Below are positions 52,109 to 64,000 of a stretch of 64,000 nucleotides of DNA, piece by piece; position 1 is the stretch's first letter; every line of letters starts with the position of its first letter. The DNA lies in assembly GCA_017445475.1 (NCBI GenBank), contig JAFSUB010000009.1, positions 1 to 64,000 of the forward strand, written 5' to 3'. The position numbers were made by a program, and so were the translations under genes. Source of the stretch: Alphaproteobacteria bacterium. Lineage in GTDB: Bacteria; Pseudomonadota; Alphaproteobacteria; RF32; CAG-239. The notes below the pieces were generated by a model, which saw only the letters and a list, made by a program, of their open reading frames with translations, made no database searches and was not told the DNA's origin.

Positions 52109-52182
52109 CAAAATGCTTGCAATCGTTTTAAAAACGTGATAATCTCTGAACAGATTTGCAAAAGATAAGGAGTGCTCATAAA

Positions 52183-54303
52183 ATGGCAAACACATATTTG
52201 GAAGTTTCGAAAGTTAATCATAATTTTGAGGAATATTCGGTTGATAAACTTCACGACCAACTGGCGCGTATGTATGCTCTTAACGAGGAAAGCGGCAAAG
52301 AGGCTTCAACGGCGGAAGAAAAGGAAAAATATGAGTGGTCCAAAAAAGAGATTGAGCGATATGAAGCTTTTTTAGCCGACGAACAAAACGCTTTTGCCGA
52401 TGAAATTTCGGTTTTGCTTCGGGTTCAGATGCAATCGGCTTTGGTCGAAGAAGGGGCGGATAGGGTTTTAACGGAAATTCACAACATTTCATATCGCAAA
52501 CCCGATGTTGAGCCGGAAGAATATGATGTCGCCGGAAAAACCGAACAGCTTGAGCTTAGGTGCACTTTTGAAGATGACGGCACAACGTTCGGTCTGTCTG
52601 CCTTAAAACGCGGCGATGGGCAAATGATGGGACAAATCAGCATTGATGAAGACGTCATCAAAAACCAAGATGAAGAAAAATTTGCCCGCATCATGGAATT
52701 TTGCCACAAATACGGTTTTTCAACGTTCGGGCTTGATTTGCCGCGTAAAAACGGCGAAATTGACGTTGATGAAAAATTAAAGGAGCTGATGGAAAAATAT
52801 CTTGAAAATCAGGCAAAACTTGCCTCCGAAAATCCGGGGCCGAAACCGAGCGAAAATGACGATACGGGTTATGATCCGGCGGAATATCATGTTGCCAATA
52901 AAGATGAAATGCCGCCCGCAACAAAAGCCCGCGCAAAAAAGCCCGCAAAAAAACCGCTTTCGTTTGAAGAGCTTTGCGAAAATATGCGAAACTATTTGGA
53001 AAAAGATTTGTTTAAAGAACGTGGTTTCACATATTGGGAACACACAAAAACAATCGGCGGGCGCAAAACGCATGTTTTCAGCGTTTATGACAAGCGCGAT
53101 CCGGACAACTATAACAATGACGGCAGGCCTGATCCGAAAAATCCGAAAGTTTTTGTGCCGACGTATGCATATCGTTTGTATGTGTCGCAAGATAAAGATG
53201 GCAAGTTTTATTTCGGTTATGCCACCCCCGGCAGAAAAGCAATGGATGCGGGAATTTTGGGCGACTTTGTGGGCGAAATGAAAAAAACGGGCATTACGCA
53301 CCTTAACTTAGTCAACATTCCAAACGCAGATAAAATGAATTGGCTTATCGCGTGCGCCGAAAAGGGCATTGTGCCGACAGGCGTGAGCGTTGACATGGCA
53401 AAAGCCGAAAAAATGCTCGCGGCAGCCAAGGCCAAGCTGACGACACAAGGTTACGCCGATTTTGAAATGAGCTTGATGGAACAAATGGAAGAAAATGCGG
53501 CAAGCAAAGGAAAAGAGCTGGAAATTAGTGAAAAAGAGTATATAAGAAAGCACAAAAACGAGGCCAAAAAATTGCTTGAAAAACAGCAAGATTTGCTTGA
53601 AGCGGCAACATTTGAGCAGAAATTTGAAAACTTCAGGAAAGCGTATGAGGCTTCTGACGGTTTATATAATATGGTAACACAAGAAATACGCGATGGCGCT
53701 TTAGACACAGACACAGGCGCGGCAACGGCCATTTCTGCCGTTTTCACACTTGCCAGAACGTTTGATGTTGTGATGGGCGATGACCACGATTTGGAAACAA
53801 CTTTCGGCAATCGGTTAGACTATCTTTTGAAAAACCCGAAAAAGAACAAAGACAAAATTACCCAAATACGCTTGACCGACGAAGAAAAAAATGCCTTGTC
53901 AACAATTTTGCCAAACACCAAAATTAAAGATTTAACCCAAAAAGATTGGTTGTTGATATACAGCGTTTTGAGCAAAAGGCAAAAACAATATACAGATGCG
54001 CGAATTGATGATATGGTTCGCAAAAGCGAAGCTTCAAACACAAAGCGTGCACCGTCTGTTTTGTTGGGTGATTTGTGGAACTCTGCCGTCGGACAGCAAA
54101 ATAAAATCAATGAAACCTTAACAAATGTTATCGGCCTTGAAAAAGGTTTGAAATTGCCGGACAGACATTTTAACTTGCCGTATGACCACGCCTTTGAGAT
54201 TATTGCCGAAGAAAAAGCCAAAAAAGACGAGGCTGCAAAAGCCGCAGAAGGGGCTTTAAAGGCCGGCGCGGTTAAAACATCGGCCGAACGCGGCAGCCGA
54301 TAA
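52183..54303 (+). CDS. Large cytoplasmic protein of unknown function, 706 aa
   Basis: No family recognised with confidence. No signal peptide or membrane helix; highly charged. Layout: helical N-terminus (1-90), alpha/beta segment (about 115-205) ending YGFSTFGLDLPRKNGE, a Lys/Pro/Ala linker (about 230-265, KARAKKPAKKP), a second alpha/beta segment (about 300-430) with TGITHLNLVNIPNADKMNW and LIACAEKGIVPTGVSVD, then long helices to a basic-acidic tail. The second segment vaguely resembles LPD7-type domains of large mobile-element proteins, and the two segments look like distant copies of each other. ATG 52183 with AAGGAG before it; own terminator. Ordinary codon use for this genome. Confidence 0.8.
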   Translation: MANTYLEVSKVNHNFEEYSVDKLHDQLARMYALNEESGKEASTAEEKEKYEWSKKEIERYEAFLADEQNAFADEISVLLRVQMQSALVEEGADRVLTEIHNISYRKPDVEPEEYDVAGKTEQLELRCTFEDDGTTFGLSALKRGDGQMMGQISIDEDVIKNQDEEKFARIMEFCHKYGFSTFGLDLPRKNGEIDVDEKLKELMEKYLENQAKLASENPGPKPSENDDTGYDPAEYHVANKDEMPPATKARAKKPAKKPLSFEELCENMRNYLEKDLFKERGFTYWEHTKTIGGRKTHVFSVYDKRDPDNYNNDGRPDPKNPKVFVPTYAYRLYVSQDKDGKFYFGYATPGRKAMDAGILGDFVGEMKKTGITHLNLVNIPNADKMNWLIACAEKGIVPTGVSVDMAKAEKMLAAAKAKLTTQGYADFEMSLMEQMEENAASKGKELEISEKEYIRKHKNEAKKLLEKQQDLLEAATFEQKFENFRKAYEASDGLYNMVTQEIRDGALDTDTGAATAISAVFTLARTFDVVMGDDHDLETTFGNRLDYLLKNPKKNKDKITQIRLTDEEKNALSTILPNTKIKDLTQKDWLLIYSVLSKRQKQYTDARIDDMVRKSEASNTKRAPSVLLGDLWNSAVGQQNKINETLTNVIGLEKGLKLPDRHFNLPYDHAFEIIAEEKAKKDEAAKAAEGALKAGAVKTSAERGSR

Positions 54304-58268: not shown

Positions 58269-60299
58269 TTATCGCGCCTGCGCATTTTCTTTGATGCGTT
58301 TCAAATCAACAGTTGATTGAGAGGCATCTTTGTCCGTTGTTGTGTTCGGCGCCGCTTTGCCGAGACTGCGCATTTGGCTGACCGTTTCATAAAGACTTTT
58401 AACAGACATATCTTTACCCTCGGGCGCATTTTTCCTGATTTTTTCTTTTAAGGCTAAAATATCAATACCGACATCGTTTTGTGCGTCTTTCACACCCGAA
58501 GTTTCACGCGCGGTTTGCCTTAAACCGACCTCGGCGTGCATTTGCTCTTGTATTTTGCCTTGCGCCGCCAGATATAAACCATTAATTTTTTCAAAAAACG
58601 CAATTCTTTCTTCATTTGCTTGTTTGGCATAATACTTATATTGTCCCTCGCGCGAATCTCTCATCGCATATGCTTCATTCACACTTTTTCGCAAAGTTTC
58701 GTATGAATCGATGTTTTCAACCAGCGGTTCGTTTTTATATTTTTGAGCAAAAGTTTCAATAAATTTGTTGGCCGCTTCATAAGCTTGTTTTTTGTGCGCA
58801 ATATCTTGAGCTTCGGCTTCTTTTGCCGACTTTTTCATAAACAAGCCTTTAATGCCTTTTGTGGGCGTATCCTCACAAACAAAAGGCTTAACGTCTTTTC
58901 CGGCTCTTTTTTCGAGTGCCAAACGCAAAATTTCATCACTTGACACATATTTCTTAAAATCGCCGGCACAAACCGCATCAAGCGAATCTCTCATTGCGCT
59001 CAATGTTTCATACGTATTCTTAATCTCTTGAGCTTTCGCCTCTTTTTTCAAGCATTCTTCATGCTCTTTTTTAACCTCTTCAATTCCATCACGCCGTGCA
59101 TCTAAATAAGCACCAACCTTTGATGTGATGAAATCTGCGCCATAACCCGCATTCAAACCTTTTTCGGCAATTTCTTTAAGTGAGCTTTCGGCAGAAGAAA
59201 TGTTGCCGTCAGCTAAATGCTCTGCCTCAATCAAAAACTTAAAATCGGGGTTGTTTTTAAAGGTTTCTTCCTTTGCAACAACGTTTATGAGGCCGCTGTC
59301 AATGTTTGCGCCAAAAGCTTTAAGCGCTTGGAGGTTGTCCTTATAACCGCGAATAACATCTTCGTCTTTATAGCGATAGGCATCAAAGCCTTTCTCGGCA
59401 ATTTCTTCAACAACGAGCTGACCTCGGACAGAAGCGGCAGATTCGTTTTCCTTTGGTGCTTTTTTTAATAAATCATACACACTCGTATTGAAATTCTTTG
59501 TATATTCTTTGGCGTCTTCGAGTGTTAAATTCGGTTTTTCTAAAAACGATTGTAGGCTTAAATTGCCCGCGTTTGATTTTGAAAGATATGTTGTTTTATC
59601 CATACCTGTTTTTTGAAGAATTAAATCCTCTATTTTTTGTTTTGCTTTATCATCAAGTCCCGACATATCGGCTTTCATTAAAGCCGGAGCAAGCGCGCGT
59701 ATTGTTGAATCGCTCAATTGATGATTGCGGTCGGTGCTTTCAAGCAAAACAGACAAATGCTGAACAGATTTTTTTGAAAGCGTATCGCCGCGCTTCATGC
59801 GCTCATTGATGTAATCAGGGCCAAACCATTCGAGGGGCATATATCTTTCTTTCGGGTTTTCATACACATATCTTGAAGCAGCAATCACGGCATCAAGCGA
59901 TTTTTCCTGTTGATCGCTGCTAAAAGCTTGTAACAAACCTTTTTCCATTCCTGTCGGCCAAGCAGGGGGGATATCTTGCGCCAAAACAAATTTTTCAAGC
60001 TTACTGCTGTCATATTTTTCAATTTGCTGTGTCATCGCCTTTTGAAATTCACTGCTGTTTCCTTCATCATCTTCAATAAACAAGCCATAAGTCCAACCGA
60101 AGTTTTTTTGTGTGCAATCCGGAAAATCAATATCATCAAAAGGCGCTTTGTTTTGAGCCTTGTTTTCTCTGATTTTTTCAAGCATCGCGTCGCGATATTT
60201 GATAATGCCTAATCTGCCTTCATTCAGCGAAAGCAAATCTTCCGCCGTCTTAATTTCGACATCGTTGCCGTTTGCGTCTTTAATGCTGATATAACTCAC
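58269..60299 (-). CDS. Large helical cytoplasmic protein of unknown function, 676 aa
   Basis: Not recognised. GTG start 60299 with AAGGA seven bases before; no signal peptide or membrane segment. N-terminal SYISIKDANGNDVEIKTAED may be a small beta-rich cap; the rest is predicted largely helical, with repeated units of about 35-60 residues containing EEIAEKGFDAYRYKDED, LKEIAEKGLNAGYGADF and similar EIAEKG words that suggest an alpha-solenoid (about residues 290-400), followed by coiled-coil-like charged helices. The C-terminus is polar and low complexity. No mobile-element neighbours. It resembles the 706-aa protein only in size and style. Confidence 0.8.
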   Translation of the reverse strand: MSYISIKDANGNDVEIKTAEDLLSLNEGRLGIIKYRDAMLEKIRENKAQNKAPFDDIDFPDCTQKNFGWTYGLFIEDDEGNSSEFQKAMTQQIEKYDSSKLEKFVLAQDIPPAWPTGMEKGLLQAFSSDQQEKSLDAVIAASRYVYENPKERYMPLEWFGPDYINERMKRGDTLSKKSVQHLSVLLESTDRNHQLSDSTIRALAPALMKADMSGLDDKAKQKIEDLILQKTGMDKTTYLSKSNAGNLSLQSFLEKPNLTLEDAKEYTKNFNTSVYDLLKKAPKENESAASVRGQLVVEEIAEKGFDAYRYKDEDVIRGYKDNLQALKAFGANIDSGLINVVAKEETFKNNPDFKFLIEAEHLADGNISSAESSLKEIAEKGLNAGYGADFITSKVGAYLDARRDGIEEVKKEHEECLKKEAKAQEIKNTYETLSAMRDSLDAVCAGDFKKYVSSDEILRLALEKRAGKDVKPFVCEDTPTKGIKGLFMKKSAKEAEAQDIAHKKQAYEAANKFIETFAQKYKNEPLVENIDSYETLRKSVNEAYAMRDSREGQYKYYAKQANEERIAFFEKINGLYLAAQGKIQEQMHAEVGLRQTARETSGVKDAQNDVGIDILALKEKIRKNAPEGKDMSVKSLYETVSQMRSLGKAAPNTTTDKDASQSTVDLKRIKENAQAR

Positions 60300-60578: not shown

Positions 60579-61922
60579 ATGAAAGCGACAGAAGAAAAAT
60601 CAAAAGGTTTAACAAAAAAGTTTAAAGCTGTTATTGCGGCTGCCGATTTTGAAAAAGAGGTGGAAAAGCGCATTGAAAAGCTTGCAAAAACAACAAAACT
60701 TCCGGGTTTTCGCCCCGGTAAAGCTCCCAAAGCGATGCTCGAGCAAAAATATCGTTCGGCGGTTTTGGGCGAAGCGCTTGACTTTGTGGTTCAAGATGCG
60801 GTAAGTCAAATTGTCAAAGACAACAAATTGCGTCTTGCGTTTGAACCGAGCGTGAAACTTGAAAAATTTGAAGACGGCAAAGACATCACTTTTGTGATGG
60901 AAGCTGAGGTTTTGCCCGAAATCAAGCTTTCCGATTTTTCTTCGCTCAAGCTTGAAAGGTTTGTGGCAGATGTGAGCGAAGATGAAATTCAAAAGTCGCT
61001 TGAATATATTGCTTCAACACGTCGTGAAACCGAAAGCGTTCAAACAAAGCGCAAAAGCAAAAAGGGCGATGTTGTGTCAATAGATTTTAAGGGCACGATT
61101 GGCGGGGTTGAGTTTGCCGGCGGCAAGGGACAGGATTATCCTTTAGAGCTTGGCTCAAATTCGTTTATCGCAGGCTTTGAAGACCAGCTCATCGGCCACC
61201 AAAAAGGCGATAAAGTTGATGTGAAAGTTCAATTTCCGAAAAACTATCATGCCAAAGATTTGGCCGGAAAAGATGCCGTTTTCGCCGTTGAAATTAAAGA
61301 TTTGAAAGTTTATAAAAAACCGGAAATCAATGATGAATTTGCCGTTAAGCTCGGCGAAAAAGATTTGGCGGCGCTCAAACAAAAAATTTCGCAGCGCATT
61401 GGGCAAGATCATGATGCGGCATCAAAGATGAAACTTAAAAGGGCTTTGCTTGATGTTTTGGACAAGGCATATTCTTTTGACGTTCCTTCAAAATTGGTTG
61501 ATGCCGAATATGAAGGCATTGTCAAGCAATATGAACATGCCAAAGAGCACAATCATCTTGATGAATATGAAAAATCAAAAAGCGAAAAAGATTTGCTTAA
61601 AGAATATAAAGAAATTGCCGTTCGCCGCGTTAAATTGGGGCTTTTGCTTTCCGAAGTCGGTATAAAAGAAAAAATTGGCGTTACGTCCGATGACCTCAAC
61701 AAAGCCATTATGGCCGAGGCCAAAAAATATCTCGGACAGGAAAAAGCCGTTTTTGACTATTATCTTAAAAACAAAAACGCGGTTGAAGCCTTAAAAGCAC
61801 CGGTTATGGAAGAAAAAATCGTTGATTTTATCTTAAGCAAAGTGCAGATGAAAGACAAAAAAGTAACCGCCGAGGCTTTATATTCTTTTGATGAAGATAA
61901 AAAGCCTGCTTCTAAAAAATAA
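60579..61922 (+). CDS. tig: Trigger factor
   Basis: 447 aa ribosome-bound chaperone and prolyl isomerase. Ribosome-binding signature GFRPGKAP in the N-terminal domain, FKBP-type PPIase (about 165-245, with GDVVSIDFKGTIGGVEFAGG), and the helical substrate-binding C-terminal domain. It starts 19 nt after tRNA-Leu and ends before its own terminator; clpP-clpX, often next to tig, is far away here. Confidence 0.96.
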   Translation: MKATEEKSKGLTKKFKAVIAAADFEKEVEKRIEKLAKTTKLPGFRPGKAPKAMLEQKYRSAVLGEALDFVVQDAVSQIVKDNKLRLAFEPSVKLEKFEDGKDITFVMEAEVLPEIKLSDFSSLKLERFVADVSEDEIQKSLEYIASTRRETESVQTKRKSKKGDVVSIDFKGTIGGVEFAGGKGQDYPLELGSNSFIAGFEDQLIGHQKGDKVDVKVQFPKNYHAKDLAGKDAVFAVEIKDLKVYKKPEINDEFAVKLGEKDLAALKQKISQRIGQDHDAASKMKLKRALLDVLDKAYSFDVPSKLVDAEYEGIVKQYEHAKEHNHLDEYEKSKSEKDLLKEYKEIAVRRVKLGLLLSEVGIKEKIGVTSDDLNKAIMAEAKKYLGQEKAVFDYYLKNKNAVEALKAPVMEEKIVDFILSKVQMKDKKVTAEALYSFDEDKKPASKK

Positions 61923-62010: not shown

Positions 62011-62964
62011 CTAACAATCCTTCCAAATTTTGCGCTTATCAAAGTCTTTCGGTTGAATAACTTTGACATGTTTACCCCAAGTGTAAAGATGCCAATCCAT
62101 TTCACGTGCTCCACCTGCGCGGAATTTAACCGTTAAAGTGCCATCGGGATTGGAAATCATCTCTTGTGTCGGATGGAAGATATATTTTGCGGCCTCATTT
62201 GCAACCTCTTTATCAAACAGCCATTCCACGTCAAACGGCTCTTCCTGATACACCCCGAAAGACTGCCTGCTGAACTCTTCTAATGAAAAATTCACGTCGC
62301 GGATGAAATATTCATCTAAAACTTCAATATTTTGGATATTATTTAAGTCAAAACTGCACATTTTCTTGCGTTTGGTGTGCCACGCAATCAGATAATGCTT
62401 GTTGCCGTAAAGAAAGCCATACGGATACACTGTTCGCCATTCGTCTTTAGTCTTGGATTGATACTTGATTTTAATGATTTTGCAGGCAATTACAGCATTA
62501 CGAAGCTTTTGCATGAATTTATCGTCAATTTTGATTTTCGGCCCTGGACGCAAAGCATAACCTTCAGCTTCTAGCAAAGCTTCAGCGTCTGGTTCAATGC
62601 GATTTAAGGCTTCGCTACTCATAGATGCTTTTATTTTATGCATAACTGTTTCAATTGCAGCAACATCCTCAGGCATTTTAGTTTTCATCAGCTTAATAGC
62701 GTTTTGCAGAGCATTTATTTCAGTTAGTGAGAATCCAACGTATTGTCCCAATGAACCTTGAGGAATATACCAGCGTTTGCTATTGTGTGCTCCATTAATC
62801 TCTTTAATTTGCGGAAACTGTTCTTTGACCATATCCTTCATACGAATAGCCGTACGTTTGGAAACCTTGAATTTCTGCATAATATCTGTAATCGAAACGC
62901 CATTTTCAGCATTTTGCATCCAAAGCGACATTTCTAACAACTTCTGTGTCTTTTGATAAAACAT
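62011..62964 (-). CDS. WYL-domain transcriptional regulator
   Basis: 317 aa. N-terminal winged helix (QKTQKLLEMSLWMQNAENGV, SITDIMQKFKVSKRTAIRMK), then a WYL domain with the ligand loop in YGFLYGNKHYLIAWHTKRKK and a WCX-like C-terminal extension (EWLFDKEVANEAAKYIF). Proteins of this build sense nucleic-acid ligands and often control phage-defence operons (CapW, BrxR). GGAGG precedes the ATG. Divergent from an AT-rich gene, with a perfect palindrome in the 146-nt spacer. The first gene of what looks like an acquired region. Confidence 0.9.
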   Translation of the reverse strand: MFYQKTQKLLEMSLWMQNAENGVSITDIMQKFKVSKRTAIRMKDMVKEQFPQIKEINGAHNSKRWYIPQGSLGQYVGFSLTEINALQNAIKLMKTKMPEDVAAIETVMHKIKASMSSEALNRIEPDAEALLEAEGYALRPGPKIKIDDKFMQKLRNAVIACKIIKIKYQSKTKDEWRTVYPYGFLYGNKHYLIAWHTKRKKMCSFDLNNIQNIEVLDEYFIRDVNFSLEEFSRQSFGVYQEEPFDVEWLFDKEVANEAAKYIFHPTQEMISNPDGTLTVKFRAGGAREMDWHLYTWGKHVKVIQPKDFDKRKIWKDC

Positions 62965-63024
62965 ATCAAACCTCCATTTTTTGAGCTATTTTAGATGAAC
63001 TGCATTTACAAATGGTTAATACTG

Positions 63025-63039
63025 TGTCATAATATGACA
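63025..63039. promoter_or_regulatory. Palindromic operator between the WYL regulator and the divergent gene
   Basis: TGTCATA-A-TATGACA, perfect 7-bp arms with a single central base, midway in the divergent spacer. A dimeric winged-helix regulator such as the adjacent WYL protein would suit it. Confidence 0.55.
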
Positions 63040-63058
63040 ATTCTAAACCCGAATCTTC

Positions 63059-63086
63059 TTGCAAACAGACATAAACCGTGTACAAT
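63059..63086 (+). promoter_or_regulatory. Putative promoter of the right-edge gene
   Basis: TTGCAA, 16-nt spacer, TACAAT, 24 nt before ATG 63111 and 19 nt downstream of the palindrome, so a repressor on the palindrome could block it. Confidence 0.45.
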
Positions 63087-63110
63087 AAAAGAAAATTACG
63101 GAGAAAAACC

Positions 63111-64000
63111 ATGAATTTGCAAAAGCGTGATTGTCCGATAAAATTTGAAATAACCAACTGTGATTCTGGCTGGCTCAATGTTTCATTGCATATTGGAAAA
63201 GATATTCACGATATAAGCATCCCATATATAGGCAACGGAATTAATGCTCTACTTGAATCTCTCGTCTATTTACACCCAGACTATAATGAACATGGACGTG
63301 AAAGCCAATATATGGAATATAAAAAAGTAGAAATTGATGGCAAAGAATATTACATACCGTATATTGCAAAATTTGACTGGAATGAAGAAGGTTCAGAAGT
63401 ATCCTGGAAAATAGCAAAATACCCTGATAATAAAGATAATTTTAGTGTAATGGTCGATCTAAACATTATTCGCCAAACAAATGGAGGAGTATTTAAGTAT
63501 AAAGTTGATTATAGGGATTTATGTTATGCAACAGCAGATCTTTGCACAAATTTACTTAAAAATTTAGGGTTCAATGGATATTTTAATAGTTATTGGCAAA
63601 AGAACATAAATATTTACGATTTGCTATTTGTTAAAGCTTATGCCCTAAAGGCTATGTATTTGTTAAATCTCAAATATTCAGATAAATACTCATGGTACTC
63701 AGATATTAATAAAGAATTGGAACTTCTGTTGTTTGATATGGATAAGAAGAAAAACTTTCCTAAACATTATGATAATATAGATGTTGAGATAATTCCAGAA
63801 AAAGATTACAAAAAGGTATCATATTATTATTCAGGTGCCCGTGCAAATATTATAATCAATGGTCGCTCATTTTTGGAAATTATTACAGAAAGAGAAGAAA
63901 AGATATTTAGTAGTGAAGGATTTAAGAGATATCGTCGAACAATTCCTAAAGCAGGAGATTATAATTATCTCACTGTATCAGAATTATTTTCATGGCTTGA
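63111..64000 (+). CDS. Unknown AT-rich gene, truncated by the window end
   Basis: Not recognised. ATG 63111 with GGAG seven bases before opens a frame without stop to the last base (296 codons so far). It begins MNLQKRDCPIKFEITNC and continues with many Tyr, Asn, Ile and Lys residues: GWLNVSLHIGKDIHDI, VDYRDLCYATADLCTNLLKN and VSELFSWL. Codon use (many ATA, TTA, AGA, TAT) is clearly more AT-rich than in the core genes, a sign of recent acquisition. No signal peptide. The position opposite a WYL regulator suggests a defence or mobile-element gene; the function cannot be called from this part. Confidence 0.8.
   Translation, partial: MNLQKRDCPIKFEITNCDSGWLNVSLHIGKDIHDISIPYIGNGINALLESLVYLHPDYNEHGRESQYMEYKKVEIDGKEYYIPYIAKFDWNEEGSEVSWKIAKYPDNKDNFSVMVDLNIIRQTNGGVFKYKVDYRDLCYATADLCTNLLKNLGFNGYFNSYWQKNINIYDLLFVKAYALKAMYLLNLKYSDKYSWYSDINKELELLLFDMDKKKNFPKHYDNIDVEIIPEKDYKKVSYYYSGARANIIINGRSFLEIITEREEKIFSSEGFKRYRRTIPKAGDYNYLTVSELFSWL

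Follow-up and report, generated by a model that had tools for sequence, protein, structure and literature searches.

A mobile DriD-type WYL switch, with a predicted operator and a phased promoter, in front of an undescribed gene

The window analysed here comprises bases 1-64000 of a 101,476-bp contig, from a genome of 1.33 Mb. Over most of the window the GC content per 2 kb is about 0.40-0.47, and in the final 2 kb it is 0.346. At that end, past the last core gene, lies a gene for a WYL transcription regulator, and facing it across a palindrome and a predicted promoter is an AT-rich gene that continues beyond the window (Table 1); the original description of these features is confirmed throughout. 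GC content is 0.390 in the WYL gene and 0.309 in the facing gene, and GC3 is 0.396 and 0.237, respectively, differences that place the shift in composition and codon use just after the WYL gene, where the original prediction had put it. Two long ORFs among the core genes, at 52156-54303 (715 aa) and 58269-60299 (676 aa), have no Pfam match above the cut-off.

Table 1. Features at the right-hand end of the window; operator and promoter are sequence predictions.
Feature	Coordinates	Strand	Description
tig (trigger factor)	60579..61922	+	left border of the accessory stretch and the final core gene ahead of it; convergent with the WYL gene
DriD-type WYL transcription regulator gene (type assigned by homology)	62011..62964	-	317 aa, intact; N-terminal HTH, 3-helix-bundle region, WYL, WCX
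Predicted operator, perfect palindrome TGTCATAATATGACA	63025..63039	.	family consensus GNCA-N5-TGNC
Predicted -35 hexamer TTGCAA, divergent promoter	63059..63064	+	start at exactly 27 nt from the operator centre; six relatives have the same distance
Predicted -10 hexamer TACAAT, divergent promoter	63081..63086	+	16-nt spacer
Unknown AT-rich gene	63111..64000, to contig 64235	+	374 aa; N module ~1-209 fused to C-x-x-C-x4-C C module ~207-374

This place was originally taken for the edge of an island, and that view is upheld. Past 64000 the contig continues with accessory AT-rich DNA, ~19 kb in all, no housekeeping genes following directly, and core genes resume at ~82,250. The region after tig is different in every relative examined, and in none of them does a WYL gene follow tig; conservation of the gene pair at this one locus was therefore rejected.

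The facing gene is followed by an ORF of 86 aa with two apparent membrane segments (contig 64316-64576), which probably belongs to the same operon, and then by a DUF378-like gene, a DUF2147 gene and an isochorismatase-family gene. A second AT-rich block carries genes for a large serine recombinase, a small resolvase, a weakly metallo-beta-lactamase-like protein, bacterial-PH, ankyrin and DUF3768 proteins, a second recombinase (Recombinase domain only, with no match to the N-terminal Resolvase domain), a 662-aa C5 methyltransferase, a nuclease-like protein and an XRE protein. The serine recombinase at L002:6275-7924 (Resolvase 9e-20, Recombinase 5e-14, phrog integrase 3.6e-68) also has a zinc-ribbon, and the presence of Recombinase and zinc-ribbon domains in an AT-rich stretch would mark a mobile element of the large-serine-recombinase kind. 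The block that contains it (contig C23:67454-81957, or L002:5455-19958) is flanked by 73-nt direct repeats, 79% identical. Relatives of the DUF2147 and DUF378 genes are present in congeners, whereas the repeats bounding the recombinase block are only 79% identical; the ~19-kb stretch is acquired DNA, probably made up of several pieces.

Extending the contig past 64000 and searching the genes that follow, as the original prediction advised, turned up integrases (the serine recombinases) and a nuclease-like gene, but no recognised complete defence system within the following 19 kb. The only strong PADLOC match in the stretch, besides ankyrin repeats, is the orphan C5 methyltransferase, ~14 kb away. 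Rfam finds no family on the island, only a tRNA beyond it. A short non-coding stretch at contig C23:81734-82096, single-copy in its own genome, is 88-97% identical over 76-147 nt to sites in other genomes (L030, L032, L035, L087 and L088), other genera included; it is possibly a mobile or structured element.

Pfam recognises WYL (1.7e-11) and WCX (1e-7) in the regulator, which had been assigned to the CapW/BrxR family. A profile of 20 WYL copies matches the DriD structures 9pfq and 8tp8 over their full length (positions 1-310) with an E-value of 3e-66, and the single protein compared with DriD gives 2e-48. The same profile matches BrxR (7qfz) and CapW (9c5g) with E-values of 0.017 and 0.043, in both cases over the WYL domain only. 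I take 9pfq and 8tp8 to be DriD and 7qfz to be BrxR in view of their molecule names and of the papers on the two regulators; the table labels say only WYL or DeoR-family proteins. As judged by sequence homology, the regulator is of the DriD type and not of the CapW/BrxR type, so that the original assignment does not stand. The window protein is collinear with DriD of Caulobacter crescentus over residues 2-307, through HTH, linker/3-helix bundle, WYL and WCX, and within the HTH its VSKRTAIRMKDMV pairs with VGRRTAERMRDAV of DriD. What it shares with BrxR and CapW is the HTH-WYL-WCX layout, an association with many unrelated defence systems, and a palindromic operator, often divergent (PMC9122601, PMC9122588).

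DriD is a chromosomal DNA-damage regulator, whereas the copy in the window is defence-linked and, by the following comparison, clearly mobile between genera of the bacterial family. WYL copies of 93-94% protein identity are found in genomes of two other genera (g3 and g12), while trigger factor, 70-75% identical within the genus, falls to 58% between genera g1 and g3. A horizontally moving WYL lineage is thus supported. A copy more than 80% identical is present in only 2 of 10 congeners. Nucleotide homology to five other loci (L061, L062, L065, L066 and L023) begins at 62016, runs through the gene and upstream to 63040-63046, just past the palindrome, and then ends, so the mobile unit is the regulator plus its operator. 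A peptide-pattern scan found no WYL relatives in viral contigs.

Unrelated immune systems adjoin the copies of this regulator. PADLOC, the one defence library used, gives a match at E <= 1e-40 in 15 of the 19 tested loci whose WYL copy has 60% identity or more, a count that is a lower bound, since mainly the largest genes per locus within the fetched stretch were scanned, yet no blind sample, and one that comes from draft genomes whose orthologous WYL loci are only partly independent. The matches are to Cas10 of CRISPR III-A (L063), Cas9 (L069), BREX PglZ or BrxC (L026, L072), type I restriction enzymes (L025, L027, L070, L074), type III restriction plus DrmD/TmtA-like genes (L065), Druantia III DruH (L025), SspC and PbeC (L073), HEC-05 (L061, L023), HEC-06/Orf5 (L067, L068) and PDC-S26 (L022). 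Three further tested loci (L062, L064, L071) have no PADLOC match at that threshold, and L024 has a weak one, to PDC-S02; L066 stood outside the 19. Among ten arbitrary 20-kb loci taken from these genomes as a control (66 large proteins), three at most had comparable matches (Fisher p 0.015). The WYL lineage is defence-linked, and here the original prediction, mistaken about the family, was right.

The link extends to the divergent slot itself. In L023, L067 and L068 the phased promoter described below points at the operon carrying HEC-05 or HEC-06/Orf5, and the gene divergent from WYL is PDC-S26 in L022 and PDC-S02-like in L024. This is the slot that the undescribed gene fills in the window. 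A long stretch with no clear large gene separates the WYL-controlled promoter from the HEC-05 or HEC-06/Orf5 operon at L023:9330-11000 and L068:9440-10150; Rfam has no match in either stretch, and both could hold unannotated RNA or small genes.

The palindrome TGTCATAATATGACA is the sole match in the window within 2 mismatches, where 0.08 would be expected, and it is fully symmetric (GTC-ATAATAT-GAC, with G-x-C half-sites 7 nt apart). The family consensus is found in 23 of 26 regions upstream of WYL copies, at near-constant positions, whereas 300 shuffles gave 0.23 on average and never more than 2. The palindrome is, by this prediction, a conserved operator. Half-sites are separated by the same 7-nt gap in the DriD site, ATACGAC-N7-GTCGTAT, but here they are of a different kind, GTC-N7-GAC/GGC, and DriD also resembles the window regulator in that its gene faces a divergent operon (PMC12340889).

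Downstream of the palindrome is a predicted sigma-70-like promoter, TTGCAA-16-TACAAT. Counting the window, 7 of 10 close loci have a -35 whose start is exactly 27 nt from the centre of the operator (26 nt in L024), despite divergence of the intervening 19 nt, of which only 2-8 are identical to the window's. In 500 shuffles no -35 offset was common to more than 3 loci. An operator with a promoter just downstream, the layout originally described, recurs in close relatives. The operator centre would lie about 62-63 nt upstream of the predicted transcription start, a position typical of activators that contact the alpha subunit of RNA polymerase.

The composite of operator and promoter occurs 2.56 times per genome in those with a close WYL copy and 1.13 times in those without (p 0.004), and the reversed pattern, as a control, 1.0 and 0.59 times. 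With 1.13 occurrences per genome even where there is no close WYL copy, the composite by itself was rejected as a specific marker: the WYL gene or the gene context is needed as well.

The facing gene, predicted to have at least 296 codons, is open for exactly 296 from its ATG to the end of the window and is complete on the contig. It has no match in Pfam, PADLOC or PHROGs, nor among plasmids, phages or PDB sequences, and no relative was confirmed in a search of genome contigs. Among 128 family genomes the full-length protein has no second occurrence, and the notion that it forms a fixed pair with WYL was rejected accordingly.

The protein is a fusion of two modules, each of which occurs alone elsewhere. 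A relative of the N module is a stand-alone protein of 223 aa, 36% identical, encoded beside core genes in another family (G340). Relatives of the C module are proteins of 145-166 aa with an invariant C-x-x-C-x4-C (window numbering) and a V...W pair, and their neighbours are mixed: RtcB in two genomes, ankyrin genes in one, and in another a WYL-bearing type I restriction island. In three genomes (L074, L090, L091) the C-module gene is preceded by the same operator and then, at an equal spacing or one that differs by about 1 base, a TTG box. In L074 it forms an operon with a gene for 259 aa, across from WYL; in L090 and L091 there is no WYL adjacent to it, but one elsewhere in the genome. The layout is absent at four other C-module loci. 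The shared layout, together with the enrichment of the composite pattern, indicates that the C module recurs in the WYL regulon, and such recurrence supports a possible defence role.

Two of the C-module loci (L092:6721-8411 and L093:6422-8163) consist of an RtcB-like RNA ligase gene and then the C-module gene, without a WYL operator. At L090:7213-10224 there is a run of small same-strand genes (the C module, two ankyrin proteins and unknowns), at least two of which have a WYL-type operator upstream, with no WYL gene adjacent.

The predicted structure of the full-length protein is poor (pLDDT 59, with the N module at ~30-50), and its fold search was uninformative. The model of the C module is good (pLDDT 86). 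Compared with the PDB it has no significant relative, the top matches being Whirly and CdiI immunity proteins at E > 0.1; a single unnamed viral match has E 4e-4, with poor superposition (rmsd 12). The weak Whirly and CdiI matches leave room for another reading, possible though somewhat doubtful, in which the facing gene is an immunity-like or toxin-neutralising fusion in a small accessory-gene cluster, not an anti-phage effector, and WYL drives it by chance. This would suit the C-module relatives that are single genes set among small and ankyrin-repeat genes (L090) or next to a WG-repeat-like gene (L114), and it would suit the N module standing alone in G340. Yet the fold matches fall short of significance, no toxin gene is recognised nearby, and the C-module genes under WYL operators in three genomes point to shared, damage-linked regulation. 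The facing gene is a promising candidate to encode a defence protein not described before. That it is the entry to an undescribed defence system, as first suggested, is plausible: the defence flavour of the suggestion holds through the WYL lineage, but an identifiable system does not emerge from a gene without a family match or from the next 19 kb.

I propose, with moderate confidence, that the locus is a mobile switch, responsive to damage or phage and consisting of a DriD-type WYL protein, its operator and a phased sigma-70 promoter, that drives an unclassified, probably defence-type gene. DriD is turned on by single-stranded DNA and works as an activator, and the divergent operon facing the gene for DriD is among its targets (PMC12340889). 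If the same is true here, then in the undamaged state the WYL dimer would be autoinhibited. Phage replication or DNA breakage would yield single-stranded DNA, which would bind the WYL domains, and the activated dimer would occupy the palindrome. RNA polymerase would then be recruited to the divergent promoter, and the facing gene turned on, as an inducible defence or stress effector.

Some observations count against this proposal. The promoters that DriD activates are weak, and its sites overlap their -35 (PMC12340889), whereas here a fairly good -35 lies 27 nt downstream of the operator, which would make for an activation geometry unlike that of DriD. The facing gene has no defence-family match, and elsewhere its modules have core genes or RtcB as neighbours, with no WYL. 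Finally, a second promoter-like match (63005-63033) puts a -10-like CATAAT inside the palindrome, which would suit repression. The same mobile module might then carry a WYL protein that acts in the manner of CapW or BrxR, blocking its own or the divergent promoter until released by single-stranded DNA. I consider this rather unlikely. CapW and BrxR, the defence-linked WYL factors characterised so far, are indeed repressors (PMC9122588, PMC9122601), and in L069, L070 and L071 the operator overlaps the -35 of the WYL-ward promoter. But the promoter that overlaps the palindrome is kept in no close relative, while the -35 at +27, outside the operator, is kept. CapW sites overlap the -10 (PMC9122588), whereas the operator here lies clear of the -10 of the promoter that relatives conserve. 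The closest characterised homologue, moreover, is an activator, and I infer activation rather than repression.

It is improbable that WYL is a solitary remnant at a post-tig integration hot spot, where the facing gene arrived independently and without functional link: the end of DNA homology just past the palindrome, the variability of the post-tig region in all relatives and the accessory blocks of different composition that follow would fit such a history, yet the facing-gene promoter keeps the exact phasing of six relatives across a diverged spacer, and the layout recurs at C-module relatives elsewhere.

Of most use is the mobile DriD-type switch itself, with its conserved (predicted) operator and phased promoter, in front of an undescribed gene. 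Here the DriD branch, of activator type, travels as a unit and is met next to CRISPR, BREX, Druantia, restriction, Ssp and candidate systems. CapH+CapP and CapK+CapS are a precedent (PMC13373217), being portable regulators that respond to single-stranded DNA or DNA damage and adjoin immune operons of various kinds, but those are unrelated proteins (protease plus HTH; kinase plus STAS-HTH), whereas here there is a single WYL protein. A bolder idea, which I advance only tentatively, is that the mobile WYL cassette is a general single-stranded-DNA-responsive inducible switch for unrelated immune systems of this bacterial family, working both in cis and in trans, and that the 374-aa protein, with its separate C-module relatives under the same operators, is the first of an undescribed family of damage-induced defence effectors. 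Whether single-stranded DNA is the shared signal that turns on many immune systems becomes a testable question. The spacing of operator and promoter is regular enough to serve as a search pattern, and so gives a handle on unannotated defence genes in the family, the facing gene included.

At several loci more than one WYL-type operator is clustered near a single WYL gene (L065:10356-10440, L070:9208-10330, L067:8921-11757 and L074:8595-10017), and some of these operators adjoin genes other than the divergent one.
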